Virus record (IMG/VR): IMGVR_UViG_3300028615_000092
Coordinates: 1-44,437 of that record
DNA length: 44,437 bases
Strand: one strand, 5' to 3'
DNA from: a virus
The notes under the pieces are model-generated. The model saw nothing but the letters and a program-made list of their open reading frames with translations. It ran no database searches and was not told the origin of the DNA. Below are positions 3,394 to 43,700 of this stretch, in pieces. The position numbers were made by a program, and so were the translations under genes. Position 1 is the first letter of the stretch. Each line of letters opens with the position of its first letter.

Positions 3394-3581
3394 GCGGTTC
3401 TCTCCTTCTCGACGGTCAGCTTGTCCACGCGCCGCCGGGCACGCTTGCGGTACTTCGCTTCCTTCTGGTGGGCCTTGCGGGCCTCGTCCGTCAGGTGGTC
3501 TCCGTGCCCGCCCTTGTGGTACCAGGCGCCGCCGTGCCGGTGCGCAGCCGCAGACTCCGCCTTGTCGAGTTGCTTGGTCAC
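3390..3581 (-). CDS. Small basic His-rich protein
   Basis: This 63-residue protein starts at a GTG overlapping the upstream TGA as GTGA (3578-3581). It has a His/Gly-rich centre (HRHGGAWYHKGGHGDH) and a C-terminal Lys/Arg helix (KAHQKEAKYRKRARRRVDKL). Metal or nucleic-acid binding is conceivable. No family is recognised. Its stop overlaps the start of the dehydrogenase gene. Confidence 0.65.
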   Translation of the reverse strand: MTKQLDKAESAAAHRHGGAWYHKGGHGDHLTDEARKAHQKEAKYRKRARRRVDKLTVEKERTA

Positions 3582-3904
3582 CAGGAGTCTCCCTGCTTGC
3601 CCATGGGCTCGAATGTGGGGTCCTGCTCCAGCTGGCGCAGGCGGCGCTTCCTGCCCTTCTTGCCGGGCCGGCGCCGCGGCGGCGCGGGCGGATCGGGGTC
3701 CCGCGGGCACCCCGCAGGGTAGCCCGTCTCCGTGGCCCAGATGCTCTTGGAGAACACCTTGCCGGTGGGCCCCTCCGGGTTCAGGCAGGCCCCCAGCAGC
3801 GGGGGCGTGTGCTCCCGGTAGTCAGGACAGTTCGCGCACTTCGACTCTCGTAGCTCCATTCGACTACCTTGCCCTCCGCTTGCGTCTTCGGCAAGCGGTG
3901 TCAT
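3578..3904 (-). CDS. Small protein with Cys pair and basic Pro-rich tail
   Basis: This 108-residue protein is assigned to the ATG that overlaps the upstream stop (ATGA, 3901-3904). A later ATG at 3859 (MELRESKC) has a GGAGG-like site upstream and is an alternative. The middle carries CANCPDYREHTPPLLGAC, a possible zinc or iron-sulfur knuckle. The second half is proline- and arginine-rich. Function unknown. Confidence 0.65.
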   Translation of the reverse strand: MTPLAEDASGGQGSRMELRESKCANCPDYREHTPPLLGACLNPEGPTGKVFSKSIWATETGYPAGCPRDPDPPAPPRRRPGKKGRKRRLRQLEQDPTFEPMGKQGDSW

Positions 3905-10208: not shown

Positions 10209-10393
10209 GAACGTGCCTTCTCTTCTTCCGTGGCCAGCCGCCGGACTTCTGCTTCACTGATCAGCCCCAACTCGACCTTGAGCCAGTGGAAGAAGGAGCG
10301 CGCGATGTTCCTGTGTGTTTCTGGCGTTTTACCCACCATGTGGTCTACCGCCTTTTCCAGCTCCGCAGAGCACGTGGGGCAGAGCTTACTCAC
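10205..10393 (-). CDS. Small CxxC protein between queD and queE
   Basis: This 62-residue protein starts with GTG overlapping the queD-HNH stop as GTGA (10390-10393). It has CPTC near the N-terminus and then a helical body (RNIARSFFHWLKVELGLISEAEVRRLATEEE). A single CxxC may bind metal as a dimer. It is co-translated with the preQ0 genes; function unknown. Confidence 0.65.
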   Translation of the reverse strand: MSKLCPTCSAELEKAVDHMVGKTPETHRNIARSFFHWLKVELGLISEAEVRRLATEEEKARS

Positions 10394-11271
10394 GCCGGCC
10401 TCGCAAACTTGGTGACGTGCCGCCATGCGCGGCCCTGCATGATCGCGTTCACCAGCGACGTGCTTACCCCATACTGTTCTGCGATCAACCTACGTGATTG
10501 CCCCTGCTGCACAGCAGCTACAATAGCTCGAACGGACAGCTCGGTCAGCTTCGCCGCGCCGTGCGCTTCCCCCACCGGACGCCTCTTCTTGGCGTCTTTG
10601 TCGGCCTCATTCGTAGTGTGGTCTGCAGTGTACAGGTGCGTTGGGTTCACGCAGGGGGGGTTGTCACACAGGTGCAGCACCGCACGCCCTTCGATGTCGT
10701 CGCCGGCCAGCCATGCAGCTACGCGGTGCGCTTTCCTGGTGCCAGCAGCCTTGGCCGCACACCAGCCGTAACCGTCTTGGTCTTGACTGCGCGTGAACTC
10801 CCAGCAGGCATCCGGATCGGACGTGTCGATACCTTCGTAGAGGCGGTCACGGATTTCAGCCATGATTGCTTTTCCGGCTTCACGTGCACGGCGGTCTTGC
10901 TTGCGCTGCGGGCGGTACGACGCGAACGTCTTGGCGGTCTCACGGAACCGCACTTCAACAAGATTGGGCAGGCGCGCCTTTGCCCACTCCCACACGTACC
11001 TGGACAACTCCTCCGCCGTGGTGGTGTCGCTGTCGAGAACCTCGTTCAGGTCGAGGTGGTCCAGGCGGCCTTCGATCCAACGTCCCACCTCGGACAGCGT
11101 GCTGTAGTCTGCCACCATGCCTGCTTTGGGACCTTCCAGTAGCACGTCGTGGCGCTCCACGATGATTTCGAACTCGTATGAGTGCCCGTGCGGGCGTGAG
11201 CACTTACCGTCGTGATGCTTCAAGCAGTGCGCCGCCTCGAAGCGGAAGGTTTTGCCAATCTCGAAGCTCAC
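10390..11271 (-). CDS. queD: QueD (6-carboxytetrahydropterin synthase) fused to HNH endonuclease and HTH
   Basis: This is one 293-residue frame. Residues 1-~120 are a QueD domain: FRFEAAHC (zinc His15), C24 in GKCSRPHGHSYE with zinc His28/His30, DHLDLNE (71-77), and RETAKT (Glu111). QueD turns dihydroneopterin triphosphate into CPH4. After a basic linker (about 120-136), residues ~142-225 form an HNH_3-type nuclease (CWEFTRSQDQDGYG, AHRVAAW, LHLCDNPPCVNPTHL). The last ~55 residues form a helix-turn-helix (SRRLIAEQYGVSTSLVNAI). The GTG start overlaps the upstream stop (GTGA). An internal ATG at 10863 (residue 137) with a weak GGAAA could also express the nuclease alone. HNH invasion at the 3' end of queD is the likely origin. 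Confidence 0.9.
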   Translation of the reverse strand: MSFEIGKTFRFEAAHCLKHHDGKCSRPHGHSYEFEIIVERHDVLLEGPKAGMVADYSTLSEVGRWIEGRLDHLDLNEVLDSDTTTAEELSRYVWEWAKARLPNLVEVRFRETAKTFASYRPQRKQDRRAREAGKAIMAEIRDRLYEGIDTSDPDACWEFTRSQDQDGYGWCAAKAAGTRKAHRVAAWLAGDDIEGRAVLHLCDNPPCVNPTHLYTADHTTNEADKDAKKRRPVGEAHGAAKLTELSVRAIVAAVQQGQSRRLIAEQYGVSTSLVNAIMQGRAWRHVTKFARPA

Positions 11272-11771
11272 GTCGTCCTCCGCCTCGAAGAGCCTGTCTG
11301 CTCGGGGTCGCATTCACTGCAGGTGCACACGTCATCTGCAACGAGGCCGTGGTTGATGCCCCGGCTGCTGTTGCACGGGCAGCCGTCCGCCATCGTGCAG
11401 TTGTCCGGCTCCAGGTACGCGTCGCAGCCCCGGCACTTGGGGTACAGCAGGGCATCCGTGATGTTGGAGATGTCGATGATCTTCAGGCCGTCGATGGGGG
11501 AGTAGTTGGCCTGGATGTAGGTGAACTCGTCCTTCTCCCCGGGCGGGGCAAGCGGGCCGAGCTTCACCCGGCCCCTGCCCTCCAGCAGCTTGGCGATCTG
11601 ATCCGCGTGCCGGCACAGGTCCTGGCTGGGGTAGAGCTGGACCACCACGTAGCCCACCTCGCGGTCACACTCGAAGTCGTGGGTTTCGCCGTCTCCGCTG
11701 TCCACGGTCCTGTACCCGGCCATGTTCAGGTACTGCACCGTCATCCGGATGCCTGGGTTGATCTCGCTCAC
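11268..11771 (-). CDS. Hypothetical protein with Cys-rich tail
   Basis: This 167-residue protein has an N-terminal part with alternating helix and strand (IRMTVQYLNMAGYRTVDSGDGE, VGYVVVQLYP, HADQIAKLLEGRG). The C-terminal part has eight cysteines (CRGCDAYLEPDNCTMADGC..., VCTCSEC). It starts at GTG overlapping the upstream stop. It sits between the second QueD-like gene and queD, so a link to the modification pathway is possible but unproven. Confidence 0.65.
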   Translation of the reverse strand: MSEINPGIRMTVQYLNMAGYRTVDSGDGETHDFECDREVGYVVVQLYPSQDLCRHADQIAKLLEGRGRVKLGPLAPPGEKDEFTYIQANYSPIDGLKIIDISNITDALLYPKCRGCDAYLEPDNCTMADGCPCNSSRGINHGLVADDVCTCSECDPEQTGSSRRRTT

Positions 11772-12381: not shown

Positions 12382-13334
12382 CGGGGGCTCTCCATGGCGG
12401 AGTCGTCTCCGTTCAGCACGTCCATGGTGTACTGGTGGGCTTCGCGTAGGCGGGTCTCCAGGTTGTCCAGGTTGGTGAGGCTGCGCAGGTTCTCGTACGT
12501 GTCCCGCGGGTGGAAGCCGAACATGTAAGCGACGTTGAGGTGGCGGCGTTCCCACAGCCCCTCGTGCACGGCCTCCGCGTAGAAGTCGGAGTAGACCGTG
12601 ATGGTCTGGTACACGTGGCTGTGCCTGGTGAAGTACCAGGCCACGGTGTCCCGCACGCGCCCCTTGTTGGGCAGCCCGCTGTCGTACTCCGGCGCCTCTC
12701 CTGCGAAGTCGAGGGGGACCAGGCCCAGCACTCCGGTGGTGATGATCAGGTGGCAGTCCTGCCACTCAGGGAACCGCGCCATGACATCGGTGTGCAGCGG
12801 CGCCGGGTAGGGCTTCTGGGCAGCGCAAGGCACCAGCACGGCGTGCTTCACGCCGGAGGGCGGCTTGTAGTCCCGCAGCTTCTGCATGTAGTCGAGCACT
12901 TCCGGTCGGAAGAAGCTGTTGTTGGTGGTGACGGGGAAGGCGCGCAGCTTGTCGGGCGCGGCGCTGACCCCGCGGCCCCACTTGGTGTCGAACATGTAGA
13001 GGGCGTCCACCAGCTCCGGGCGGCAAGCGGCTGCGACTTCCACGGCCAGGCGCTTGTCCTTGGCCTGCTGGTAGAACATCTCCCAGGACAGGGTTTCGCC
13101 GTCCCAGTCCTGCGGGGAAACGCTGGCCACGTGGTGGCCCATGTAGGCGATGAAGGGGGCCCAGCACCGCGGCACGTTCACGCACTCGTGCGGCATGGTG
13201 GTGCGCGCAAGCTGCTCGAAGATCACCAGGTAGTTGGTGTACTCGTGCTCGTAGTCCTGCGCGTCACGCGCCTCTGAGAGCATCCGGCCCACGTCACACG
13301 TGGGCAGCTTCTGCTCCTCCTGCAGTTCCGTCAT
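12378..13334 (-). CDS. ArcS-like (archaeosine synthase, DUF5591-type) protein
   Basis: This 318-residue protein has a C-terminal half resembling the catalytic domain of archaeal ArcS/TgtA2. It contains SFFRPEVLDYM, LVPCAAQKPYPAPLH (the PC-x3-KPY motif with its reactive Lys), LIITTGVLGLVPLDF and APEYDSG. In archaeal tRNA, ArcS attaches an amino acid to the nitrile of preQ0 on the way to archaeosine. The Ser of the canonical KPY-x2-S motif is Pro here. It lacks the TGT-like and PUA domains of archaeal ArcS. Placed next to dpdA and que genes, it is a good candidate for modifying preQ0 after insertion into DNA. The ATG start (13334) follows GGGGAAG; the 5' end overlaps dpdA by 41 bp. Confidence 0.75.
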   Translation of the reverse strand: MTELQEEQKLPTCDVGRMLSEARDAQDYEHEYTNYLVIFEQLARTTMPHECVNVPRCWAPFIAYMGHHVASVSPQDWDGETLSWEMFYQQAKDKRLAVEVAAACRPELVDALYMFDTKWGRGVSAAPDKLRAFPVTTNNSFFRPEVLDYMQKLRDYKPPSGVKHAVLVPCAAQKPYPAPLHTDVMARFPEWQDCHLIITTGVLGLVPLDFAGEAPEYDSGLPNKGRVRDTVAWYFTRHSHVYQTITVYSDFYAEAVHEGLWERRHLNVAYMFGFHPRDTYENLRSLTNLDNLETRLREAHQYTMDVLNGDDSAMESPR

Positions 13335-14307
13335 CGTCTTCCCCACTTTCAAAAACCGGACCGGTGCGCTCACTGCTCGCGGCTTCCATCTCTTTCAGTT
13401 GCTTGCGCCAGCGCGCGCGGGCAGCACGCTCCTCGCGCAGGTACCAATCCACCTCGTCTCGCAGGTGGTGTTCGCTCCCACGGATGGAGACCTTCTTGTT
13501 CTTGCCGGTTCCCTTCTTCGTGCGCCACGCCGCCCACTTGGTGACCTGGCTTTCCCAGGTGGAGCTGTCCACGCTGTGGAAGGGCAGCTCCCGGATCAGG
13601 TTCACGTCCACGGCGGCGAAGCCGTGCACCTTGCACGGCCAGATGCGTGCGAAGCACTCCTTGTAGAACTTGATCAGCGTGCTCTTGTGCCACTTCTTGC
13701 CGCCGGTGCCCGAGATGGCGATCTTGGGGTAGGTCTTGGCGATCTCCAGCAGCAGTTCTTCCGGCTCGCCCGCGTGGTAGGTGGGGATCGCCGGCACGCC
13801 CTGCCGCCACATCTCTTCTACATTGCGCATTCCGGCTTCCCAGTCGTTGATGACGTCCAAGCCGAAGACCTCCACCAGCTGGTCGTCCTCCTCCAGGAGC
13901 TTCAAGCTGGTGTCGATGAACTGCTGCAGGTCGATCTCCTTCCCGCTGTGGAACGCAGAGAAGGCGCCGGAATCCATGGCCCAATCGTGGATATCGTAGT
14001 CGTGGCGGTTCTTCTGCCACTGGTCCAGGTACGGGTAAGCCACGAGCACGCTGGGCTTGTCGATCGTGGCCAGGCCGGGCCGCGGGCCCAGCCCGGTGCG
14101 AAGCGCGTAGGCGGGGCCGGAGTACGCAAGGCGCACCTGCGTCACGGGCCGCCCCAGAGCCAGATGTAGTCCGTCCACCAACCGGTGAGAGGCAGAACGG
14201 TCCACCACGTCGCCCGTCTCGATGCAGATGGCCAGCTCAAGACGCACGCAGAACCACTGGAGCAGGACGAAGTTGAGGGTGCCCAACCAGGAACGGAACG
14301 GGTTCAC
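13294..14307 (-). CDS. dpdA: DpdA-like DNA guanine transglycosylase (TGT family)
   Basis: This 337-residue protein has a core (about 85-300) that follows the phage DpdA/TGT barrel: SVLVAYPYL, HDWAMDSGAFSAF (the D-S-G element equivalent to TGT's substrate Asp), FGLDVINDW, VPAIPTYHAGE, IAISGTGG, KVHGFAAVD, and FHSVDSSTW (the second, nucleophile-type Asp). DpdA exchanges G for preQ0 in DNA. The first ~60 residues (from VNPFRSWLGTLNFVLLQWFCVRLELA) are hydrophobic and resemble an unrelated small phage protein, apparently fused in frame. Internal GTGs at 14145 and 14136 could start the enzyme proper. The chosen GTG (14307) overlaps the upstream stop. Confidence 0.85.
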   Translation of the reverse strand: MNPFRSWLGTLNFVLLQWFCVRLELAICIETGDVVDRSASHRLVDGLHLALGRPVTQVRLAYSGPAYALRTGLGPRPGLATIDKPSVLVAYPYLDQWQKNRHDYDIHDWAMDSGAFSAFHSGKEIDLQQFIDTSLKLLEEDDQLVEVFGLDVINDWEAGMRNVEEMWRQGVPAIPTYHAGEPEELLLEIAKTYPKIAISGTGGKKWHKSTLIKFYKECFARIWPCKVHGFAAVDVNLIRELPFHSVDSSTWESQVTKWAAWRTKKGTGKNKKVSIRGSEHHLRDEVDWYLREERAARARWRKQLKEMEAASSERTGPVFESGEDDDGTAGGAEAAHV

Positions 14308-14480
14308 TTGCGCCTCTTCTTCGGCATCAGCCGCTCGAACAGAAGGGTGCGCACGACGTCGGACTTGTTGACGTTGGCTCCCGGGTTGGCCTTCTGCTGA
14401 CGGACCACCTCCCTGTCCAGGAGCTTTGCCAGCACCCTTGGGATGCGGACATACAGCACGCTGTCGTTGGAGCCGGTCAT
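14304..14480 (-). CDS. Small ribbon-helix-helix-like protein
   Basis: This 58-residue protein starts at an ATG overlapping the ParB-like stop (ATGA, 14477-14480) and ends overlapping the dpdA start (GTGA). The sequence VLYVRIPRVLAKLLDREV followed by NKSDVVRTLLFERL has the strand-helix-helix pattern of CopG/Arc-type DNA-binding proteins, with a basic PKKRRK tail. A regulator or DNA-tethering factor for the modification genes is plausible. Confidence 0.65.
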   Translation of the reverse strand: MTGSNDSVLYVRIPRVLAKLLDREVVRQQKANPGANVNKSDVVRTLLFERLMPKKRRK

Positions 14481-15136
14481 GGGTTCCTGTTCTGCCAGTA
14501 TTCGGCCAGCGTCGCCACGCCCAGTCCGTCCGAGTCCTCGGGGTGCAGCGCATTCTTGGCGCGCATCGAGGACAGGACGCGCTGCAGAATCTCGTGCTCC
14601 GAGTCGGACATGGTGATGGTGTGCTTGCGCGACACGTCATCTCCGCTGGGGAGCCCGCCGCTGTCCCCGGCGGTAGGCGGAGACCAGTCCGCCTTCATCA
14701 TGTTGTCGATCTCTTCCTGGCTCCAGCCCAGGGACTCGATGTCGAAGCCGGGCTCCTGCTGCAGCGTGTCGATCTGGTCCACGAGCTGCTCGAAGTTCCA
14801 CTCCGACAGCTCACCGGTGCGGTTGTCTGCCAGGGCGTAGCCGTTGGCCTCAGTGGGCGCTTCGTCCACCACCACGGCAGCCACGTGAGTCCACCCCAAG
14901 CGCTTGGCCGCTTCGACGGTGCCGTTGCCGGCCTTCACCGTCATGGTGTCCTCGTGGACCACGATGGGCTTGCGCTGCTTGTAGCGCTGGAGCGACTTCT
15001 CGATGCCGGCCAGGCTGCGCTCGTCATGCATCCGCGCGTTCTCCGGGTCCAGCACGATCGCATCGATCGGGATGGCCAGCGGCTGCAGCTGCGGGACGAT
15101 GTGGCTCAGGTCTGGCGCGGGCGCGGGATCGGTCAC
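14477..15136 (-). CDS. ParB-like nuclease-domain protein of the modification cluster
   Basis: This 219-residue protein has a ParB/sulfiredoxin-type fold at about residues 20-110. It has IDAIVLDPENARMHDERSLAGIEKSL, then KPIVVHEDTMTVKAGNGTVEAAKRLGW, where GNGT-x-x-AAK matches the ParB GxGxxRxxA site, then ALADNRTGELSEWN. Such proteins accompany phage DNA methylases. A ParB-like protein (DpdB) also accompanies DpdA in bacterial 7-deazaguanine islands. The GTG start at 15136 is 6 nt after AAGGGGG. Its C-terminal third is polar and unassigned. Target-site selection or ATP-driven assistance to DpdA is an inference from context. Confidence 0.78.
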   Translation of the reverse strand: MTDPAPAPDLSHIVPQLQPLAIPIDAIVLDPENARMHDERSLAGIEKSLQRYKQRKPIVVHEDTMTVKAGNGTVEAAKRLGWTHVAAVVVDEAPTEANGYALADNRTGELSEWNFEQLVDQIDTLQQEPGFDIESLGWSQEEIDNMMKADWSPPTAGDSGGLPSGDDVSRKHTITMSDSEHEILQRVLSSMRAKNALHPEDSDGLGVATLAEYWQNRNP

Positions 15137-25970: not shown

Positions 25971-28526
25971 TTAGGCAACCTTCTGCAGGCTGCCCCACGC
26001 CGGACCCACCTTCAGGTCCGCCACCAGGGGGACTTCACCACCGGGCCCCTTCGAGTCCCAGCTGGTCATGATCTCCGGCACACGCTGCGTCACCAGGTCG
26101 ACGTGGCTGTTCTTCACCTCGAACATCAGGGAGTCGTGCACCGTCAGCACCAGCTTGGCCGGCACGTTGTCGGCCAGTAGCCAGCGCACACACTCGATGA
26201 GGCTGGCGATGCAGTATTCGCTCGCCGTGCCCTGCACCGGGGTGTTCACGGCCGCGTTCTCTGCGTTGTTCCGGGCCATGTCGTCCTGGCTGACGATGTC
26301 CCAGAGCGGGCGGCGCCGGGCCTTCTCCCCCTCCCACCAGGTCCATACGTATCCTGTGCGCCGGGCCTCCGCCAATTGCGACTGGCACCACTGGGCGAAG
26401 ATGCCGAACTTGCCCTTCACCGCCGCCATGACGCTCTCTGCCACCTGCAGTGGGATGCCCAGGCGCTGCGCCAGGGTGCGTTCCTTCATGCCGTAGAGGA
26501 TGGCGAAGTTCACGGTCTTGGCCTGGCTGCGCTCAGCCTCCCCCACCTCCTCGGGCTTGATCTTCCACGCGAGTGGCGCGATCAGCTGCGCCGTCTTGAG
26601 GTGGTAGTCCACGCCCGACTCCCAGATGCTCATCATGGTGGGGTCACCAGACAGCATGGTGGCGATGCGCAGCTCCAGCTGGCTGTAGTCCACCTCGACC
26701 AGCTGGTAGCCGTCCGGGGCAACGAAGACGTCCCGGCACATCTTGCTCTCCGGATCCTCCGGCCGGCGGATGTTCTGCAGGTTGGGGTCTTCGCAGCTCA
26801 GCCGTCCACTGCGCGTGCCGTCGATCTTCAGTGAGGGGTGCACACGCCCATCGCTGCGGATGTAGTCCTGGATCCCCACGGCGTACTGGCCGCGCAGCTT
26901 GCCCACGCGGCGCCACTCCTGGATGTCGTTGACAATGGGGTGGTGGGCGGCCAGCTCCTTCAGCGCCTCCTTGTCCGTGCTCGGCGCCCCCTTCTGCGTG
27001 TAGCTGTTCACCGGCAGAGACAGGGTCTCGTAGAGCAGCTTGCTGATGGACTGTTGGCTGTTGGGGTCGAAGTCTGGGTACTGGTCGAAGCGCCTGCGGA
27101 TGATGTCCTGCCGGCCCTGCAGATAGCGGTCGAAGGTGGTGGCGTTTTTGAGGGAGGCTGCGATGCCCCAGGCTTCCACCTGCTCGATGGACTCGCTCGC
27201 GTGCTTGACGATCTTGTGCCAGATGCTGTGCAGCTGCGGCTGCTGGCCCAGCTGAGATTCAAATCGCTCTCCCAGCTTTGTCGTGGTCAAGGAGTCCCGG
27301 CCGTTGTACCGATGCAGGAGATCGCGATCGATCAGCCCGTAGGCGTAGCGCTTGGGGCTTTCCTGGGGCCGGGCGCACGCCGCTTCCAGGATGGGGTCGA
27401 TGCCGAACAGCATCATGGCCTTCTGGCTGCGCGCCCGCTCCTTCGTGATCAGCATGCAGGCGTCCTTGACCGCCTTCTGCGCCTCCGCCTTCATGCCGCC
27501 CAGCCCGACCAGCTCCGAGCACACGTCCAGCGTGCCGTCCACATCCGCGGCCAGCAGCTTGCGCCACAGGCGCGTGTCTCCGTAGTGGTTGCGCACCACC
27601 GTGTCCAAGCCGCAGCGGACAGCGTGCGCGTCGTACTTCAGGTTGTGGCCCACCTTGCCTACCGCCGGGTCTCCCAGCAACTCACGCAGCGGCTCGTTGA
27701 CGCCCGGGTCCTCCAGGGCGCTCTGGTCCCACACAAAGATCTCGTGGTCGTACGCAGGCACAGCCGCCAGAGACACCAGGGTGAAGTCCTCCTCGAACAT
27801 CACGCCCGCGGTCTCGCAGTCGAAGCTGAACCAGGGTGCGTCCCGCAGCGCATCGCAGGCGTACAGCGCGTCCCTGCGGTCCACGATCACGTTGACCTCG
27901 GCATCCCACTCCGGCTTGTCCGGGATGTCCGAGGTGAGCGCCCACCGCATGTCCGCTTCGAGCCACTTCTTGATGAAGCGGTTGCGGAGGGCAGCCAGCG
28001 GGCTGTTGAGCATGAAGACGGGCACGGGAACACCGTCATCCGTGATGTCGGCGTTGTAGATCCAGCCGTGCCCCCTGCGCACGGACATGATGGGCACGCT
28101 GCGCCCGAGCAAGCTCATGACGGCGCGGTTGCCCAGAGCAATGATGCGCTGCGGCTTGGCCTCCCGCAGGGTGCGTGCGAGATAGGAACGGCAGGCGTCT
28201 ACCTGGGTAGCCCCCACCACGGCGCGGCCCGGGGAGCAGCGCACGGCGTTGTCGAACGCCACGGGGCCGTCCCAGAAGCGGTCCACGGCGCGGCGGACAA
28301 TCCGTCCGGTCTCCCCAATGAACGGGCGCCCCTCTCGGTCTTCGGAGCGGCCCGGGAATTCACCGACGATCAGCACGCCGCCGGGTTCTCCCTCTGCGCT
28401 CATGCAGATCGTCTTCTCCGCTGCTGCGTGGAGATCGCAGCGCCTGCACGCCTTGGTCACGCCGGTGTGCGGGCTGGTCTCGACGGCGGCCAGCGGGGGT
28501 TCCGGGTACAGCGGGAGCTGCTTCAA
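25971..28526 (-). CDS. polA: Fused uracil-DNA glycosylase (family 4) and family A DNA polymerase
   Basis: The protein has 851 residues. Residues ~20-200 are a family 4 UDG: four Fe-S cysteines (C27, C30, C97, C112), GEFPGRSEDREGRPFIGETG as the catalytic loop, and IIALGNRAVMSLLG. Residues ~225-420 are a 3'-5' exonuclease (FDCETAG, VGHNLKYDAHAV, YNGRDSLTT). The rest is polymerase: DPNLQNI, VEVDYSQLELRIA (motif A), RSQAKTVNFAILYGM (motif B, Phe at the ribose-selection site) and LTVHDSLMFEV (motif C). The fusion could remove uracil ahead of synthesis or guard against host deamination. It starts at TTG overlapping the upstream stop (TTGA), with GGAGGA upstream. Confidence 0.92.
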   Translation of the reverse strand: MKQLPLYPEPPLAAVETSPHTGVTKACRRCDLHAAAEKTICMSAEGEPGGVLIVGEFPGRSEDREGRPFIGETGRIVRRAVDRFWDGPVAFDNAVRCSPGRAVVGATQVDACRSYLARTLREAKPQRIIALGNRAVMSLLGRSVPIMSVRRGHGWIYNADITDDGVPVPVFMLNSPLAALRNRFIKKWLEADMRWALTSDIPDKPEWDAEVNVIVDRRDALYACDALRDAPWFSFDCETAGVMFEEDFTLVSLAAVPAYDHEIFVWDQSALEDPGVNEPLRELLGDPAVGKVGHNLKYDAHAVRCGLDTVVRNHYGDTRLWRKLLAADVDGTLDVCSELVGLGGMKAEAQKAVKDACMLITKERARSQKAMMLFGIDPILEAACARPQESPKRYAYGLIDRDLLHRYNGRDSLTTTKLGERFESQLGQQPQLHSIWHKIVKHASESIEQVEAWGIAASLKNATTFDRYLQGRQDIIRRRFDQYPDFDPNSQQSISKLLYETLSLPVNSYTQKGAPSTDKEALKELAAHHPIVNDIQEWRRVGKLRGQYAVGIQDYIRSDGRVHPSLKIDGTRSGRLSCEDPNLQNIRRPEDPESKMCRDVFVAPDGYQLVEVDYSQLELRIATMLSGDPTMMSIWESGVDYHLKTAQLIAPLAWKIKPEEVGEAERSQAKTVNFAILYGMKERTLAQRLGIPLQVAESVMAAVKGKFGIFAQWCQSQLAEARRTGYVWTWWEGEKARRRPLWDIVSQDDMARNNAENAAVNTPVQGTASEYCIASLIECVRWLLADNVPAKLVLTVHDSLMFEVKNSHVDLVTQRVPEIMTSWDSKGPGGEVPLVADLKVGPAWGSLQKVA

Positions 28527-30299: not shown

Positions 30300-30635
30300 T
30301 CAGTTCCCTTCCCCTCTGGTCCACACCGCTACGGGGCGTCCATGAGATCCAATGGGCTCGAACCCGATGCGGTTCCAGCCGTTGCCTTTGCGGAACACCG
30401 CGCCCATGAAACGCGGGTCGACTTGATCGAGCTTGGGGCCGTGCCCCTGCACACGCAGCTCGTCGAAGACCTCGGTGCTGGTCACCTGGCCGTTCTGCGC
30501 GCAGAGCCGCCGGGCCACAGTGTCTGCAGCCGCAATCAGGTCAGCGCGGGTTTGCTGTAGCGCGTCCAACACGCGGTCGCGCTTGGCGTGCTCTCGGCGC
30601 TTTCTGGCGCCGGGTGGTGGTGCGAGATTGCTCAC
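30300..30635 (-). CDS. Phage replication-region protein, unknown
   Basis: This 111-residue protein has DLIAAADTVARRLCAQNGQVTSTEVFDELRVQ, DPRFMGAVFRKGNGWNRIGF and HGRPVAVWTR. The pattern (TSxxV...DPRxMGAVFR...W) recurs in small phage proteins near helicases and primases. GTG overlaps the primase stop as TAGTG. It opens with MSNLA, containing the same CAATCTCGC 9-mer as ssb. Confidence 0.68.
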   Translation of the reverse strand: MSNLAPPPGARKRREHAKRDRVLDALQQTRADLIAAADTVARRLCAQNGQVTSTEVFDELRVQGHGPKLDQVDPRFMGAVFRKGNGWNRIGFEPIGSHGRPVAVWTRGEGN

Positions 30636-31519
30636 TAGTTTCTCCTGGCCCGGTCACTCTGCATGGTGAACTCCGCCAACCGGTCGAGATCTGCGGGCGG
30701 CAGATTGCCGGGGTCGGTGGCCGCCGGCAGCTTGATGAAGTACGAGTCCTTGCCCTTCCGCTTGAGCCACCACGCCAGCGCGCGGCCTTCAAGCCAGGCG
30801 TCCCCGTCTAGCACAACCACGATCGGTCGTGCAGCGTGCAGCAGCATCTCCTTCTGCGGCGCGGTGGGCTTGCCGAGACACGCAACGGCGTTGGGCCAGT
30901 GCGGGAGCGCGTCGAACACGCCTTCCACCACGTAGACCGGCTTGCGAGATACCAGGCGCAGCGCGTTGCTGTTGAACAGCAGATCCCCGCGCTTCATGCC
31001 TTCCGGGTAGCGGTAGCGCAGGGGCACCTTGCGATCGTGCCAGTAGCGCCCGACCCACCCCTGCCAGATTTCATCATCATCGATCAGCGGAACTATGATC
31101 CTGCCGGCGAACTCACCGTCGAGGCAGCAGCCGACGCGAGCTTGGCGGATGGTCTCCTGCGGGACGCCGCGTGCGTAGAGGTACTGCCGCGGGTCTTCGG
31201 TGACCATGGCCGTGTCGCCGGGGTCCTCTCCCAGCCACATGAAGTGTTCCGGCGCCACGATCTTCACCGGCGTTTCATCCACCTCGTCGATGGTGATGCC
31301 GGCAGCGCCGGAGGGCGGGCCCTTGAGCTTGCCTACCGTGCCGCAGCGGAAGCAGTGGTACACCCACTCGCCCACCAGGATGCTGAAACTCCAGCGCCGG
31401 TCGGTCTTGCCGAGCTTGATCGGACAGAAGGGGCAGTTGGCGCGCCACCAGTTGCTCTTGCCTTTGGTGGCGTTGGCGAACGCGGCCTCTGCTAGCTGGT
31501 CATCTGATGCGCTTCCCAT
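30635..31519 (-). CDS. DNA primase (CHC2 zinc finger plus TOPRIM)
   Basis: This 294-residue protein has an N-terminal zinc-binding domain with CPFC ... YHCFRCG, then RGVPQETIRQARVGCC. A TOPRIM catalytic domain follows: VYVVEGVFDAL (Glu) and IVVVLDGDAW (DxD), the metal ligands for RNA primer synthesis. I take ATG 31519, preceded by GGGGGAAGAG; a TTG at 31558 would add 13 residues. The 15-bp repeat CGATCGACTCGCGAA lies just upstream (31537-31551). It functions with the DnaB-like helicase and polymerase of this block. Confidence 0.88.
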   Translation of the reverse strand: MGSASDDQLAEAAFANATKGKSNWWRANCPFCPIKLGKTDRRWSFSILVGEWVYHCFRCGTVGKLKGPPSGAAGITIDEVDETPVKIVAPEHFMWLGEDPGDTAMVTEDPRQYLYARGVPQETIRQARVGCCLDGEFAGRIIVPLIDDDEIWQGWVGRYWHDRKVPLRYRYPEGMKRGDLLFNSNALRLVSRKPVYVVEGVFDALPHWPNAVACLGKPTAPQKEMLLHAARPIVVVLDGDAWLEGRALAWWLKRKGKDSYFIKLPAATDPGNLPPADLDRLAEFTMQSDRARRN

Positions 31520-31567
31520 CTCTTCCCCCGCAAGTCCGATCGACTCGCGAAAATCCAAGTCGCTGAT
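31520..31567 (-). promoter_or_regulatory. Primase leader with dispersed 15-bp repeat
   Basis: This 48-bp gap contains CGATCGACTCGCGAA at 31537-31551 (+ strand), identical to the tandem repeat at 39917-39946. It ends with the primase Shine-Dalgarno site. A regulatory-site reading comes from the repeat's second occurrence in a control region. Confidence 0.45.
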
Positions 31568-33126: not shown

Positions 33127-34467
33127 CTAAAAGGGACTGTCGTCTACGAACTCCGCGTCATCTCCGCCGACGTAGCCGCGCACCGTGTCGGCCGTGCGCC
33201 CGTGCATCCAGTCTTGCGGCAGCGGGCCGATCTCCTGGCGCGCCGGTCCGTAACGGTTCTTGGCGATGTAGTACATCAGGCTCTCCCCCTCATCGCGGAG
33301 GTTCAGCGTGATGACCAGGTCAGCCACGCGTACCTTGTGCATCGAATCCGCGGTGTGGTGGATGTCCAGGCGCTTGCCACTGTCCTTGCCCTTGCGGGTG
33401 GACTGCGAGGCGGTCCAGCACCACGTCTTCCGCTCGTCCGCCCAGATGCGCAGACCCTCGTAGACCACGCGGCCCGCAGTGTAGCTGCTCTCGTCCGTCT
33501 TCTTGCCCGCACTCATCTTGTCGGCGTAGTCCACCACCAGCAGGTGGATGGGTTCACCCTCCGCCTGCTCGATCGCGTCCACCCAGTTGGTGACGTGCTC
33601 CAACTCCGTGGCGTGGGGTGTGAACGAGTTCACGTAGGTGGGCCCCAGCCGGCCCGCGAGCTTCTCGATCTGCGCCTTGGCCGTGTCCATGCCGCTGTTG
33701 GCGATGGCGTTGACGGGGATGCCCGTGATGTTCGCCTTGATCCGCGCCAGCACCATCGGCTCAGGAAGCTCCAGGGTGGCGTAGGCGACGCGCATGCCCT
33801 TGTAGCAACTGACCCCGGCCATGTGGCTCAGGAACATCGACTTGCCGCCGCCGGAGTCTGCGATGGCAACGCCCAGGCATCCGCGCGGCAGGCCACCGTC
33901 TGTGGCTTGGTCGATCTCTGGAACGTCGAAGGGCAGCCGGTCCAGGTGGCGGATGGCCTCCATGGCGTCGAAGGAGCCTTCACCGATCTTCACACCCAGG
34001 CTGCTGTCCTGCTTGCCGAGGTGCTCCGCGCTGAGGATGCGCTTGGCAAAGCCGGTGAGATCCTGACGCTTGCCCTGCGCGTCCAGCATGTCGAGCACGG
34101 CGTCATCTTGCATGCGCTGTTGCAGGACGGGCACCAACTCCTGCAGCAAGCTCTCATCGCCGGGCAACCCCGCGTCGATGGCCTCGTCGAAGTAGTCGTT
34201 CACCTCCTCGATCTCTTCCTGCGTGACGCGGCCCTCCTCATGCCGCCGACGCAACCGTTGCAGCACCACGATCAAGCTATCAGGTCCCTTGTGCGCTTCC
34301 GCCGCGTAACTCTTGACGGTCTCCAGCGCGAGCTTCCCGGGCTTGGCCTTGATCGCTTCCGGATCGATCTCCGCCCCTACAAGTCCGAACAGCTTTGGCC
34401 GCTGGCACAACGCGGTCACCACTGCACGCTCGAAGTCAGGGTCGAGGCCGTAGCTCTCCACCTTCAC
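33127..34467 (-). CDS. DnaB-like replicative helicase
   Basis: This 446-residue protein has a helical N-terminal domain (FERAVVTALCQRPKLFGLV...) and a RecA-like motor. The motor has VAIADSGGGKSMFLSH (Walker A), RVAYATLELPEPMVLARI and LLVVDYADKM (Walker B). WTASQSTRKGKDSGK and HHTADSMHKVRVADLVITL follow, with the DnaB-type Q and sensor segments. It unwinds DNA at the fork as a hexamer and would be loaded at the origin inside the gene upstream. The GTG start overlaps that gene's stop (GTGA, 34464-34467). Confidence 0.88.
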   Translation of the reverse strand: MKVESYGLDPDFERAVVTALCQRPKLFGLVGAEIDPEAIKAKPGKLALETVKSYAAEAHKGPDSLIVVLQRLRRRHEEGRVTQEEIEEVNDYFDEAIDAGLPGDESLLQELVPVLQQRMQDDAVLDMLDAQGKRQDLTGFAKRILSAEHLGKQDSSLGVKIGEGSFDAMEAIRHLDRLPFDVPEIDQATDGGLPRGCLGVAIADSGGGKSMFLSHMAGVSCYKGMRVAYATLELPEPMVLARIKANITGIPVNAIANSGMDTAKAQIEKLAGRLGPTYVNSFTPHATELEHVTNWVDAIEQAEGEPIHLLVVDYADKMSAGKKTDESSYTAGRVVYEGLRIWADERKTWCWTASQSTRKGKDSGKRLDIHHTADSMHKVRVADLVITLNLRDEGESLMYYIAKNRYGPARQEIGPLPQDWMHGRTADTVRGYVGGDDAEFVDDSPF

Positions 34468-36077
34468 TCCCACAACCACTCTCCCTTCCGTGCTCTCCTG
34501 CGCATCTCTCGTTGAAGCTCAGCTACTTCTTGTTCAGCCTGCACCATCAGTCGGTCGTACAACCCGTCTGGGAAGGCGAGATTCACGATGGCGTCCACCT
34601 GCTCCTGCGTGGTGGGCCGGCGTTCCATCAGGGTAGCTCGCATCCGCGCGTGCCGGTGCACGATCTCCTTCACGGCCGGCGTGATGATCTGGCGTGCCCC
34701 GCTGACTCGCGCTGCGGCGTCCGAGTGTCGTGACCATCCCTGGCGCTTGGCGATCCGCGGCACGGCGTAGAGCCAGCCCGGCGCGGGCCAGTTGATCTTC
34801 CTGCGGCGGCCCTGGCCGGCGGCCCCCTGGTCGTGGTCCCACACGTCGAGGCTGAACGAGACCCAGACGGCTGGCGGCACGTTGTGCTCGCGGAGCTTCT
34901 CCGCGGCCTCCAGCAGGTTCATGAACGCCTCGTCCCCCGGCTGCGGCCGGCGCTTGCCGCGGAACACCCAGCACTGCTTGGCCTTGCCCCTGCCCGTGCG
35001 GCCGTATCGGTGCTCGACGCCGGAGGTGTAGGTGGCGGCGAGGAGGTCCACCATCTCGCTGGGGTCCATGTCCTCCCGGAGCGCGGGTGGCGCCGGTACG
35101 CGAGCCGGCTGGATGTGGGGCCAGGGTGGGACATTTGGGTACATCCACGTGGCCGGCGCCAGGGCGGCGCCCGCGATCGCAGGTGCATGCCCGCTCGAAG
35201 TGGTGGTGGGGGTGATCACTTCCGCCGGGCCTTCCGGGGGCTCCGACGAAGAGGGGAGAGGGGAAGGCGCCGCATCCGGCGCCGTTCTTCCTCCGAAGGA
35301 GGAAGGACAAACGGCTGATCTGTTAATTATAATTGGGGGAAAATGGGCTACTTGAATTTTTTCCGGAATGATTTCCGGCACTTCCGCTGAAATAGGCGAC
35401 TTGATTCCATCACCCAAAATAGGCGACTTGATTTCCGCCGGACCCGAAATAGGCGACTTGATTTCAGAATGGGCTACTTGAATTTTTTCCGGAATGATTT
35501 CCGGCACTTCCGCTGAAATAGGCGACTTGATTGTTTGGTGTGGTGGCTTACACGTTTTACCGGCCGGTCGGCCAGCGTTGGTGCGCTTGCCGCCCCACCC
35601 TGCGGACGCCTTGATCGCGCGCCAGGCGTCGGGCGGCACCACGTACACATCGTCCCCGTTTGGTGAGGTTCCGAAGGACCCGAAGACGGTGCAGTTCCGC
35701 AGAGACTTCCGCTTCGTGAGCAGGTGCAGCTTTCGAAGGCGCCTCAGCCCGCGCCGGAATTCGTCGTAGTCGAGCCCTCCGGCGGCAGCGAGCCCGCGGC
35801 CGGTGGCGCGCACTTTGCCGTCTGTGCGCCGGTACTTGCGGAGCAGCGACCAGACCAGCATGCCGTTGCGTCCCAAGGCCCTTTCGAAGTCGCGCTCCGG
35901 GACCGTCAGCTTTCCGGCGACGGTGGGAGGGACGGCATCGAGGGCGTGGGCCTGCTGCAAGGGGACTCCGGTGGAGGCAGGCGAGGTAGGGCGTTCAAGG
36001 TGCGCGCCGGAACGGGCTGGTGGCCCGGCGACTGGCAGGTAGCCAAGCCCCAAGCTCCCAGCACGCACCTTCAACAC
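34464..36077 (-). CDS. Replication initiator with internal origin (lambda O-like organisation)
   Basis: The protein has 537 residues. Residues ~55-135 form a winged-helix-like domain (LTVPERDFERALGRNGMLVWSLLRKYRR ... RRLRKLHLLTKRK). A low-complexity stretch (~180-250) follows, in which IKSPISAEVPEIIPEKIQVAH is nearly repeated; this is the translation of DNA iterons at 35342-35532. A proline-rich linker comes next, then a C-terminal domain with YGRTGRGKAKQCWVFRGKRR and NWPAPGWLYAVPRIAKRQGW. The layout (DNA-binding N-terminus, origin repeats inside the gene, helicase gene next) matches phage initiators such as lambda O. The start (GTG 36077) is moderately certain. The repeat segment is much more AT-rich than its surroundings. 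Confidence 0.8.
   Translation of the reverse strand: MLKVRAGSLGLGYLPVAGPPARSGAHLERPTSPASTGVPLQQAHALDAVPPTVAGKLTVPERDFERALGRNGMLVWSLLRKYRRTDGKVRATGRGLAAAGGLDYDEFRRGLRRLRKLHLLTKRKSLRNCTVFGSFGTSPNGDDVYVVPPDAWRAIKASAGWGGKRTNAGRPAGKTCKPPHQTIKSPISAEVPEIIPEKIQVAHSEIKSPISGPAEIKSPILGDGIKSPISAEVPEIIPEKIQVAHFPPIIINRSAVCPSSFGGRTAPDAAPSPLPSSSEPPEGPAEVITPTTTSSGHAPAIAGAALAPATWMYPNVPPWPHIQPARVPAPPALREDMDPSEMVDLLAATYTSGVEHRYGRTGRGKAKQCWVFRGKRRPQPGDEAFMNLLEAAEKLREHNVPPAVWVSFSLDVWDHDQGAAGQGRRRKINWPAPGWLYAVPRIAKRQGWSRHSDAAARVSGARQIITPAVKEIVHRHARMRATLMERRPTTQEQVDAIVNLAFPDGLYDRLMVQAEQEVAELQREMRRRARKGEWLWE
35321..35344. other. AT-rich tract beside iterons (candidate unwinding element)
   Basis: The segment TGTTAATTATAATT and the following GGGGGAAAAT directly flank the iterons and are strikingly AT-rich for this genome. 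By analogy with iteron origins it would be where strands first open. Confidence 0.55.
35342..35532 (+). repeat. Iteron array, probable replication origin
   Basis: Four copies of AAATAGGCGACTTGATT (35390-35406, 35417-35433, 35447-35463, 35516-35532) and two of the variant AATGGGCTACTTGAATT (35342-35358, 35468-35484) all point the same way. A 65-bp block (35342-35406) is repeated exactly at 35468-35532, and each block also contains the inverted repeat CCGGAA-TGAT-TTCCGG. All lie within the initiator gene. Evenly oriented short repeats beside an AT-rich tract are typical iteron origins. Confidence 0.82.
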
Positions 36078-37530: not shown

Positions 37531-37906
37531 ACTCTGAATCGCTGCGCCGGTAGCGCGCCAGGCAGCTCATCTTGTGGATGTTTGGATCGAACTCCCTGGT
37601 CAGCCGCGACGCAGCCTCGGTGGCGTCGATCAGCTCCTGCAGTTCATGGGCGGTGGAGAAGATCCTCCGGCGTTGTCCGCGCCGCGGGGGCCTGGGCACG
37701 ATCTCCAAGGCAGTGCGCACGATGTCCTTCGCGATATCCAGCACGAAGGAGGCGTCCACGTCGTACGTCTTGTGGTCCCGCCACGCGGCGAGGTGCTCCT
37801 CCATCGTGATGCACAGTGCCGGGTTCGTGGCCCGTATGTTGTTCGCCAGCGACAGGAGGGTTAGGCGAGATACCAGGATTTCAAACTCCTGGCGCTCCGA
37901 CGTCAT
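37502..37906 (-). CDS. Hypothetical helical protein with Cys tail
   Basis: This 134-residue, mostly helical protein (ILVSRLTLLSLANNIRA, SFVLDIAKDIVRTALEIV, AHELQELIDATEAASRL) has three cysteines near its C-terminus (MSCLAR..., CDCG). ATG overlaps the helicase stop (ATGA, 37903-37906). Function unknown. Confidence 0.64.
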   Translation of the reverse strand: MTSERQEFEILVSRLTLLSLANNIRATNPALCITMEEHLAAWRDHKTYDVDASFVLDIAKDIVRTALEIVPRPPRRGQRRRIFSTAHELQELIDATEAASRLTREFDPNIHKMSCLARYRRSDSECDCGATRGR

Positions 37907-39462
37907 CCACCCAACCACTGCGCGAGGAAGGAGCCAATGAGTAGTGCGATGCCTACGGCGGGCGCGGCCTTCTGCAACGTGCTCAGGAGGTCCACGTCTG
38001 GGGCTCCGATGCGGTAGCCCTCCTTCTCGTAGGCCCTGCGCCGCTGCTTGGAGTGGTTCTCCAGCATGCGGACGCCGATGTCTTCGAAGTCCCACACCTC
38101 GAAGGTGTCTCCCTTGCCTTCAGCCTTGCGCATGCCGCGTCCGATGCGCTGGAGGGTGGCGATGACGCTCTTGCCACCGCTCGCGATTACCACGGACTCC
38201 AGCTCCGGGATGTCCGTGCCCTCCTGGAAGATGACGCTGCAGATCAGGACTTCGATCTCTCCCCGGACCAGACGCTCGATGGCAGACTTCCGGCGCGGGG
38301 TGTCCGTGTTGCCGAAGACGAACTCCACGGGGATGCCGGCCTTCCGCATCCGCTCTTCCAGGATCTTGCCGTGCTTGATCTCTTTCACGAACACCAGCGC
38401 AGGCTTCTTCGCGAGTTTGCAGGCTTCCACCACGGCGCGGTTGCGCGTGGCGCTGCGCACGATGAACTTGCCGTAGACGCCCTGGAAGGTGGCGGGGATC
38501 TGGCCGATGTTGTTGAGGCCGATGTGGTGGACGGGCTCCATGCGGATGATGGGCTTCGCGAGCAACCCACGCTCGATCAGGTCCACGGCCTTCAGCTCGT
38601 AGATGATGTCACCCAGCACGCCCACCGTGACGAAGCTCCGCTTGTCGGTGCGCGCCAGAGGAGTGCCGCTGAGGCCGACGCGGTAGTAGGCGTTGCGCGT
38701 AGCCATGGCCACGCTCATGAAGCTGTCCGCCGGCAGCGTGTGCGCCTCGTCCACCATCACGCCGCCCACGGAGGCCAGCAGATTCAGCGCGGCTTGGTGG
38801 TTGCGAGATTGCTTGTTCTTGAGCGCCCTGGCCAGCGTCTGGAAGGTGGCGACGGTGAAGCGCTCCCCCTCGAACCACTCACCGTCACCGATGCGGCCCA
38901 CACCCAGCATCTCCGCATCGCCGTGCTTGGTGAGTCGGCGAGCTGAGTCCAGCTCCTCCGGATCGAGATCCGTCATGCCGCTCACGCGCTTCACGTAGCG
39001 CTCGACGGTCTGGTGCAGCAGGTCCTTCTTGTGCACCAGGAACAGCCACTTCGTCGGAATCTTCAGCGCCAGGCCAATCGCGATTTCCGTCTTGCCTGCA
39101 CCGGTGGGCAGCTTCAGCAGCCCGCGCGTGCGCTTGACCACCGCGTCGATGGCTTCCAGCTGGTAGTCACGCAGCCAGTCCAGCGCGATGTCCGGGTCGG
39201 GCGAGCACGGAGGGGTTCGGGCGTCCGAGATTTGGACGCTGATGCCCTCCGCCTTGGCCGCCTTCATGACCCGGCGCGTGAAGCCCGCGGGGAAGAGGTC
39301 GTTCAGAGAATCGTAGAGGTGGATCCGCTGCTTGGTCCCGAAATTCCCAGTCGCGAATTTGGCCCGCTCATCCGGAATGCTCAGGTACTCCCGCAGGAAT
39401 CGAGATTCCCGTCCGCTGGGGTTGTGCACCTGGGTGCGGATGTTGTGGACGGTCAGTTGCAC
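37903..39462 (-). CDS. SF2 DNA helicase (UvsW/XPB-like)
   Basis: The protein has about 519 residues. An N-terminal damage-recognition-like region is followed by LRDYQLEAIDAVVKRTRGLLKLPTGAGKTE (Q motif and Walker A). VMVDEAH (motif II), VGLSGTP (III), EGTDIPELESVVIA (V) and LQRIGRGMRK (VI) complete the helicase set. UvsW-type enzymes remodel replication forks and R-loops. The C-terminus ends in a hydrophobic helix (PAVGIALLIGSFLAQWL), unusual for a helicase and possibly a membrane anchor. The start is uncertain: GTG 39462 has an AAGG 6 nt upstream; TTG 39504 is the only other start codon in frame. Confidence 0.85.
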   Translation of the reverse strand: MQLTVHNIRTQVHNPSGRESRFLREYLSIPDERAKFATGNFGTKQRIHLYDSLNDLFPAGFTRRVMKAAKAEGISVQISDARTPPCSPDPDIALDWLRDYQLEAIDAVVKRTRGLLKLPTGAGKTEIAIGLALKIPTKWLFLVHKKDLLHQTVERYVKRVSGMTDLDPEELDSARRLTKHGDAEMLGVGRIGDGEWFEGERFTVATFQTLARALKNKQSRNHQAALNLLASVGGVMVDEAHTLPADSFMSVAMATRNAYYRVGLSGTPLARTDKRSFVTVGVLGDIIYELKAVDLIERGLLAKPIIRMEPVHHIGLNNIGQIPATFQGVYGKFIVRSATRNRAVVEACKLAKKPALVFVKEIKHGKILEERMRKAGIPVEFVFGNTDTPRRKSAIERLVRGEIEVLICSVIFQEGTDIPELESVVIASGGKSVIATLQRIGRGMRKAEGKGDTFEVWDFEDIGVRMLENHSKQRRRAYEKEGYRIGAPDVDLLSTLQKAAPAVGIALLIGSFLAQWLGG

Positions 39463-39544
39463 GATGGCCTTCGCGAGATTGGGGTGGACGAACGGCGAGC
39501 GCAAACGGCGATGCCGCCGGCGAGATTGGGCGGCGAGATTGGAG
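39463..39544 (-). promoter_or_regulatory. Helicase leader with three CAATCTCGC repeats
   Basis: Three copies of GCGAGATTGG (+ strand: 39473-39482, 39520-39529, 39533-39542) lie between the HTH gene and the helicase, the first overlapping the alternative N-terminus. No Shine-Dalgarno site precedes the TTG alternative, so most of this stretch may be an untranslated leader with a repeated site. Confidence 0.4.
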
Positions 39545-42252: not shown

Positions 42253-42906
42253 TCATGCACCAAGCTGCTGGAGCAGTGGGTCGGCGCGCAGCGCAGCGTT
42301 GGCGTTGCGCGTGGCCCGGTAGATTCGCCACTTGTTGACCCCGGCGTCCCGGGCGACGTCTTCCGCACGCTCGTTGTTCAGCAGCACGCGCGCGGCTAGG
42401 GTCCCGTCTGGCTGCAGCTCGAACACCCGGCGCATGCGTTCTGCGACTTGCTTCTTGGTCACCTGGACTTCGGTGTGGTGCAGCTCCGTGGATCCCTCCG
42501 GAGCGTGATCGAGGTCTACGCTCCAGGTCTGGAGTAGCTTCCCCGTCGCGTGCTTGCTCCCTTTGACTGGCGAGCGCATGCGCACGGCGGAGACGAGGCA
42601 CGTCCGCCAGACTGCCGTTGCTGCGTACGCCTGAAACGGCCCTAGCGGGGCCTGCCAGCTGCGTTGTGACTCCAGGATCGCGATCCAGGCATCCTGGTAA
42701 AGGTCCGCGATCGCAACCCCGTAGCGGGACGCATAGCGGCCAGCAATGCCCCGCGCCATTTTGTCCAGTGCGGGGAAGTCCATCACTGGTGCCGCGCGCT
42801 CGGGCCGCTGGCGCACGGGTGGTGCGGCCGCTGGTGCGGGAGGCACGCTTCGGCGTCCCCGGCGCTTCCGGTACGCGCGCAGGTTCTCGTATGCCCGGGC
42901 GTCCAT
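42253..42906 (-). CDS. Sigma-70-like protein (regions 2 and 4)
   Basis: This 217-residue protein has a middle part with LDKMARGIAGRYASRYGVAIADLYQDAWIAI, then GPFQAYAATAVWRTCLVSAVR. This follows sigma region 2 (core-binding DLxQxAxI, then the -10-recognising helix). The C-terminal part (ERMRRVFELQPDG..., AARVLLNNERAEDVARDAGVNKWRIYRATRN) is a region 4-like helix-turn-helix. It may direct host polymerase to phage promoters. The N-terminus is a Pro/Arg-rich extension. TGATG overlaps the upstream gene. Confidence 0.7.
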   Translation of the reverse strand: MDARAYENLRAYRKRRGRRSVPPAPAAAPPVRQRPERAAPVMDFPALDKMARGIAGRYASRYGVAIADLYQDAWIAILESQRSWQAPLGPFQAYAATAVWRTCLVSAVRMRSPVKGSKHATGKLLQTWSVDLDHAPEGSTELHHTEVQVTKKQVAERMRRVFELQPDGTLAARVLLNNERAEDVARDAGVNKWRIYRATRNANAALRADPLLQQLGA

Positions 42907-43700
42907 CAGTACGAGCGCTGGAAGCGGATCTGCGGGTCGCTCTTCTGGCGCAGCGCGTTGACGCCGGCCCGAACCATCTCCAGCACAGCGCGGTGGTGGC
43001 GGTTCGACCTGGTGTGGGAGCGCGGTGCCGTGAACGTGCTCTCGCACACGTAGCACTTGCCGTCTCGACCGGGCTTGATGAAGTTGCCCTCCGAGATGCT
43101 CTTGATGTCGTCCCGGAACAGCGTCCAGACGCGATCGGTGTCGCGCTGGGCGAGGACGGCGCCGTTGAACGTCAGCTGCAGGCAGCCGTGTACCGGGCCG
43201 TCGTCCGCCTGCACCCGGCGGATCTGGAAGTCGCTGTACCCCTCCGCCTCCCTGTCGATGGAGATGGCGTTGCGGAACCGGGTCGTGAACCGGCGGCGCA
43301 GCCGAGCATCCAGGGACTTGTCCGCGGCCGCGGGGCGACGGCGGCGGTCATCCCCGCCCTTTCGATTCTCGTTGCGCCGGCTCTGCGCCGCGTCGTAGAG
43401 GAAGGTGCCCAGCCCTGCAAAGGGCGGCTTCGCGAAGATGTCCGGCAGGCTGTACCGGTTGTGCTCGCCGCGCAGCAGCTCCCGGATGGTCTCGACGTCC
43501 ACGTGGCAGGTGTGGCCCTGCTCCGCGTCCATGCGGTGGGCGCCGTCCACGATGTCCCGGTGCGTGTTCTGGCATCCGTACGAGATGTGGATGACCCGCC
43601 CGTCCCGGGCGGTGACGAGCTTGATGGGGTGTGCCCCGTCCTCGGCCAGCGCGCAATCCACGCTGGCCACGAGGGTGTGGGTGTGATCCTTGTCCGACAT
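42906..43700 (-). CDS. Hypothetical protein with C2H2-like zinc finger
   Basis: This 264-residue protein has an N-terminal His/Cys-containing part (TLVASVDCALAEDGAHPIKLV, HISYGCQNTHRDIVDGAHRMD). A basic linker and a central domain (DFQIRRVQADDGPVHGCLQLTF) follow, then CYVCESTFTAPRSHTRSNRHHRAVLEMV, a C2H2-like finger. The ATG is preceded by AAGGAGACTGGAC, the leader shared with queC. Function unknown. Confidence 0.68.
   Translation of the reverse strand: MSDKDHTHTLVASVDCALAEDGAHPIKLVTARDGRVIHISYGCQNTHRDIVDGAHRMDAEQGHTCHVDVETIRELLRGEHNRYSLPDIFAKPPFAGLGTFLYDAAQSRRNENRKGGDDRRRRPAAADKSLDARLRRRFTTRFRNAISIDREAEGYSDFQIRRVQADDGPVHGCLQLTFNGAVLAQRDTDRVWTLFRDDIKSISEGNFIKPGRDGKCYVCESTFTAPRSHTRSNRHHRAVLEMVRAGVNALRQKSDPQIRFQRSY

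Follow-up and report, generated by a model that had tools for sequence, protein, structure and literature searches.

A probable lambda-like replication origin within the linker codons of a phage initiator gene

In phage P22, an initiator gene (gene 18) is followed by a gene for a DnaB-like helicase (gene 12), and the likeness of P22 to the locus described below is one of gene order. Iteron plasmids carry their iterons outside the rep gene. The repeats of these plasmids (P1, F, RK2, and R6K) are mostly direct, are phased with the DNA helix, and lie beside an AT-rich region, and the iterons of lambda are inverted repeats (PMC5043065). In lambda and in the Stx phages, the origin occupies the middle of the initiator gene (O in lambda) (PMC7466680). 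We found that the lambda iterons have spacings of 20, 24, and 23 and fall in three reading frames. An AT-rich tract comes next, and a hairpin (ATTCGTCAGA-GAAT-TCTGGCGAAT) lies 39 bp past the last iteron. The early promoters of phage N4 contain an extruded hairpin on the template strand, with a three-base loop and a sheared G:A pair (PMC4496689), and a pRN1-type plasmid needs a stem-loop beside its replication gene in order to replicate (PMC4234260).

We analyzed a stretch of 44,437 nucleotides of viral DNA (IMG/VR record IMGVR_UViG_3300028615_000092, positions 1 to 44,437), here called the window. Because the records of related phages reach 92-113 kb, this window probably covers only part of a larger phage genome. 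Positions 35266-35533 very probably represent the replication origin of the phage, located among the codons that specify the linker of its initiator (Table 1). The sequence is best read as an origin of lambda-like layout, placed inside the gene for an initiator whose family is undescribed. The initial annotation had taken one open reading frame for the initiator coding sequence and had placed a DnaB-like helicase gene immediately downstream; both frames are present, the former open on the minus strand, and they overlap. Lambda O is followed by the gene for the helicase loader P, whereas the window initiator is followed by the DnaB-like helicase and, later, by a primase. Genes for UvsX and for SbcCD-like proteins are also encoded in the window.

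Table 1. Coordinates of the predicted origin, the initiator gene, and neighboring replication genes in the window
Feature	Position	Strand	Remarks
Family A DNA polymerase (PolA) gene	25971..28526	-	Same replication block
DnaG-like primase gene	30635..31558	-	36-44% identical to genes downstream of the relatives' helicase
DnaB-like replicative helicase gene	33127..34479	-	Overlaps the initiator gene by 16 bp
Initiator gene	34464..36077	-	537 aa, GTG start; open ORF
C-terminal helical domain codons	34467..35135	-	Residues 315-537; AlphaFold, mostly high confidence
Linker codons	35148..35582	-	Residues 166-310; AlphaFold, pLDDT mostly <50
Second hairpin	35266..35283	+	GGCGCCG-CATC-CGGCGCC; adjoins the first hairpin
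Perfect hairpin	35287..35305	+	8-bp stem; loop GAA on plus (non-coding) strand, TTC on coding strand
AT-rich spacer	35306..35341		36 bp, 61% AT (whole record 35%); putative site of melting
Iteron 1	35342..35358	+	Type A; closest to the AT-rich spacer
Iteron 2	35391..35407	+	Type B
Iteron 3	35418..35434	+	Type B
Iteron 4	35448..35464	+	Type B
Iteron 5	35468..35484	+	Type A
Iteron 6	35517..35533	+	Type B
Exact 65-bp duplication	35342..35406 and 35468..35532	+	Copies 100% identical
Winged-helix DNA-binding domain codons	35598..35939	-	Residues 47-160; AlphaFold, pLDDT mostly 80-95
DEAD-box helicase gene	37903..39504	-	Upstream of the initiator gene; syntenic in relatives

The window initiator protein had no sequence match in Pfam, PHROGs, the PDB, about 50,000 phage records, or plasmids. 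In an alignment of 19 initiators, two members matched the generic helix-turn-helix family HTH_36 of Pfam, and none belonged to a known plasmid Rep family. Generic helix-turn-helix matches aside, the analysis identifies a phage initiator family beyond Pfam, PHROGs, the PDB, and those phage records, and it shows where in this family the origin probably lies. When the 19-member alignment of relatives was compared with lambda O by hhalign, the probability was 0.9% and the E value 0.058. Thus, by analogy the locus may work like the lambda origin, while membership in the lambda O family is without detectable sequence support.

An AlphaFold model of the initiator was built with the same alignment, a single-sequence model being uninformative. 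It divides the protein into a winged-helix domain, a linker, and a C-terminal helical domain (Table 1). The winged helix, originally a guess, is now supported by this model and by Foldseek, whose top PDB matches to the N-terminal domain were MarR-type winged-helix proteins, all of them weak (E of at least 0.086). By the domain limits of the model, the linker codons contain the iterons, the spacer, and both hairpins, that is, the whole predicted origin. In one relative (L063), the C-terminal domain is encoded as a separate gene; across the relatives, alignment of this domain proved too diverse for a scan.

The iteron core, GGC[GT]ACTTGA, is present in six same-direction copies at 35342-35533 inside the initiator frame. 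Six exact copies of GGCKACTTGAWT are present in the window, always on the plus strand and between 35346 and 35532. With up to one mismatch allowed, a single further site appeared, at 40106; dinucleotide shuffles of the window gave 0.39 on average. All six iterons lie within 190 bp of the 44-kb record. They are of two types, A (AATGGGCTACTTGAATT) and B (AATAGGCGACTTGATT core). Aligned in the same orientation, the types agree at 14 of 17 positions, a similarity reached in 0.8% of shuffles. Their start-to-start spacings are 49, 27, 30, 20, and 49. The six same-direction iterons and the exact duplication holding two of them are therefore as initially annotated. The iteron AATRGGCKACTTGAWTT is not palindromic, and iterons of the window family are asymmetric, unlike the inverted repeats of lambda (PMC5043065).

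These repeats could in principle be a property of the protein, namely, a repetitive linker of low complexity that slippage or unequal recombination has lengthened, without any function as DNA, and the exact 65-bp duplication does indicate recent recombination in the array. The initial annotation had described a near-perfect peptide repeat. The spacings, however, shift the frame: four copies are read as ATC AAG TCG CCT ATT, giving IKSPI, and the other two as ATT CAA GTA GCC CAT, giving IQVAH. The peptide-repeat reading was rejected because of these frame shifts between copies, and the presence of two reading frames implies that the DNA, not the peptide, is what is conserved. Tolerance of origin DNA by the linker had also been proposed, and here the predicted disorder would explain both the tolerance and the coexistence of coding and origin functions.

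The sequence adjoining the iterons had been annotated as an AT-rich tract, and AT content is in fact 55% over 35300-35540 versus 31% in the rest of the initiator gene. Beyond the spacer, starting 37 bp past the last iteron, is a perfect hairpin, a third component of the putative origin that was absent from the initial annotation. Lambda has its iterons, AT-rich tract, and hairpin in the same order as the window. The lambda parallel is therefore closer than originally claimed, since lambda also has a hairpin at about 39 bp and iterons in several frames, although its O gene contains no perfect GNA triloop hairpin. Iteron plasmids differ from the window as follows: iterons of the window lie inside the initiator gene, the plasmid Rep proteins are of other families, and DnaA sites are usual in the plasmids, whereas no DnaA box (TTWTNCACA) was found in the window.

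Initiators often autoregulate, and the winged helix is structurally closest to MarR-type regulators by Foldseek, so the array might be an operator through which the protein regulates transcription of its own gene, with the true origin elsewhere. However, the sites are found 545-735 bp inside the gene rather than at a promoter, the spacer and the hairpin come after them just as the corresponding parts do in the lambda origin, and the initiator gene is flanked by replication helicase genes. We consider an operator very improbable on these grounds and retain the reading of the array as part of an origin.

Similarity of the helicases, together with synteny, led to about 27 relatives of the locus in uncultivated phages. 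The initiator alone or the helicase alone, used as a protein query, revealed no close relative in viral contigs. Queries with the DEAD helicase and UvsX yielded two large relatives in which an initiator homologue lies upstream of a DnaB-like helicase, and helicase alignments then yielded about 25 more. The gene order of initiator, DnaB-like helicase, and downstream primase is also seen in relatives. Because the median identity of helicases among members is 36% (the highest pairs share 70% and 54%), the members can be treated as largely independent. When genome contigs from 84,980 bacterial and archaeal species were scanned, a single weak match resulted, which indicates a viral lineage that does not seem to be integrated. 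Beside the initiator cassette, L060 contains a sliding-clamp-like gene (2526-3623) and L059 a Dam-like methylase gene (2595-3317), both named from sequence only.

The initial annotation had proposed looking for conserved iterons in relatives, and member-specific iterons, generally in several frames, were indeed found at the same place. Fifteen members, the window included, contain a repeat starting with [TCG]CAA[AG] just past the GGxRxGAGRP motif that ends the winged helix, in the linker before the C-terminal domain. Each member has its own repeat; among these are GAAATCAAANGCACCCCC in L061 (three copies), GTCAAACTGTCCCAAT in G005 (two), ATCAAACGGGACC in L063 (three), GCTTTCAAGTCACACCCC in L141 (two), AATATTCAAAGGGGGTCCAAC in L142 (three), CATTCAAGCGACC in L151 (four), TCAAGTGTGGGG in L163, TCAAAMCCGATCC in L164, TCAAGMGGGACCGC in L170, TCAAAGGGGTCCC in L172, and TCAAACGAGG in L173. 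The copies are mostly 21-25 bp apart, with less regular spacing in the window; set against iteron plasmids, in which same-direction repeats would lie near two helical turns apart, the window agrees in direction but is irregular in spacing. Exact repeats of 16-21 bp are present in L141, L142, L151, G005, and L063, where local shuffles never exceeded 12 bp. In relative records of 97 kb and 94 kb, the iteron word is confined to the initiator gene.

The relatives also bear on the peptide-level explanation of the repeats. Linker repeats are all in one frame in L064, L169, L174, and L162, and copy number differs between L174 and L177, as a growing low-complexity linker might predict. On the other hand, 14 of the 15 TCAA-type members (all except L162) read the same DNA word in two or three frames and hence as different peptides. 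The word keeps one orientation throughout, apart from a single inverted copy each in L151 and L170, and its core recurs across relatives while the encoded peptides do not. Repeats without a function as DNA are therefore extremely improbable. The locus instead offers a clear natural case of DNA that would act as an origin while also encoding a disordered linker, and in which the word is kept as the reading frame changes.

Not every member follows this pattern. The repeats of L064, L169, L174, and L176 belong to a different type, and no clear iterons were found in G001, L149, L167, and L171, some of which also have no clear hairpin; in these four, the origin must be elsewhere or degenerate. The initiator linker of L149 (3166-4960) includes an HNH-like stretch and no visible iterons, and one member of the initiator alignment matches endonuclease VII (phrog_1035); the L149 linker is possibly a homing endonuclease at the origin position. 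In the near-identical phages L174 and L177, it is a 24-bp linker repeat that differs in copy number, which suggests that such repeats change quickly. The L162 initiator contains a very AT-rich tract (3970-4090) read in frame as a long peptide rich in N, I, K, and F.

Two further observations concern the iteron word itself. Lambda iterons (J02459, 39034-39118; L196) contain TCAAA, as is seen on comparing TCAAAACGAGG of lambda with TCAAACGAGG of L173, and this common start could be due to chance or to deep homology. A search of viral contigs for a pair of TCAAGTMGCC iterons gave 19 matches, about the number expected by chance and mostly in repetitive or unrelated genes. In an unrelated viral contig (L014, 4802-4860), a small gene is preceded by what looks like another iteron array, with three TCAAGTAGCCC-like repeats at intervals of 23 bp.

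In ten members, a spacer that is AT-rich for its gene is followed by a perfect hairpin 31-40 bp past the last iteron. Besides the window, these are L141, L148, and L164 (31 bp), L061 (32 bp), L142, G005, and L176 (34 bp), and L172 and L173 (40 bp). The loop in these ten hairpins is a GNA triloop on the non-coding strand (GNNA in one), so that the three bases read TNC on the coding strand; GNNA loops occur in L063, L151, and L164. In L163, the hairpin has a TTTA loop at 26 bp, and in most other members the distance is 58-83 bp. By eye, the AT-rich spacers appear to share a TCAG[AT]CTCT-like box.

To count these hairpins, GNA triloops with stems of at least 7 bp were scored in the initiator genes and flanking DNA of 27 loci. 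Fourteen were found in 40,469 bp of initiator genes versus one in 272,643 bp of flanks (P of ~5e-12). As the pattern had first been noticed in some of the counted loci, a prediction was fixed before the last scan, which added 12 new distinct members. The prediction held in part. Six of the 12 had TCAA or GCAA iterons; five had GNA hairpins and one a GNNA hairpin, four of these lying 31-40 bp from the last repeat. By our own arithmetic, five GNA hairpins in ~19.4 kb against one in 273 kb corresponds to a probability of ~7e-6, which is well removed from chance. The loop prediction failed in the other six (L163, with its TTTA loop, L162, L167, L170, L171, and L179).

TTCG-like hairpin tips are common in bacterial terminators, and the hairpin might accordingly act in the mRNA, as a terminator or attenuator, and not in the origin. 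A terminator was rejected since the hairpin has no T run after it and its loop register fits a triloop. Stems in L141, L142, G005, L064, and L060 likewise register on a triloop rather than on a UUCG tetraloop. In addition, all 14 initiator-gene cases have GNA on the non-coding strand and none has it on the coding strand, while the ten members above keep their hairpin 31-40 bp from the iterons. An mRNA element thus seems improbable, and the hairpin is very likely to be part of the origin. Many distant relatives appear to keep a three-part layout of iterons, readily melted DNA, and a hairpin despite differences in sequence and repeats that often lie in different reading frames.

These features suggest the following mechanism. 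The winged-helix domain of the initiator would bind the six iterons as an array, and bending together with supercoiling would open the adjoining 36-bp AT-rich spacer. The C-terminal domain would then recruit the phage DnaB-like helicase, encoded by the next gene, followed by the DnaG-like primase. On the far side of the melted region, the hairpin with the GNA loop would fold out of the non-coding (plus) strand, where it may mark or hold the opened end and may be the site of the first primer. The approximately 15 divergent members each have their own iteron and a presumably homologous winged helix, so that co-variation of protein and DNA could provide a recognition code.

Loops of the d(C-GNA-G) type form unusually stable DNA minihairpins. 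We propose, tentatively and as something short of probable, that the GNA hairpin serves for strand-specific priming and that, after the spacer has melted, the phage primase or helicase recognizes it. If so, where the leading strand starts and which way it runs would be set by a DNA minihairpin whose distance from the iterons is fixed, and an entire lineage of uncultivated phages would share an origin class made of three parts. The near-constant distance of 31-40 bp between iterons and hairpin, of which lambda has a looser form, makes it possible to test what the hairpin does. The early promoters used by the N4 virion RNA polymerase similarly place a hairpin with such a loop on the template strand (PMC4496689), but that hairpin is a promoter and not a replication origin. 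A search for T7-type RNA polymerase (PF00940) gave no match in six relatives, and no control genome gave a match either. The pRN1-type origin differs in that its 100-nt stem-loop lies outside the gene and works with different proteins (PMC4234260).

Several other genes of the window were recorded. A QueD-like domain is fused to an HNH endonuclease (10390-11313, minus strand), and a queuine tRNA-ribosyltransferase-like gene is present at 13294-14640 (minus strand); from these two genes, 7-deazaguanine modification of the phage DNA is possible. The frame at 42253-43056 (minus strand) has a match to sigma-70 region 2. Six tRNA genes are clustered at 67-1315 on the plus strand, the last of them overlapping a 90-bp tandem repeat.
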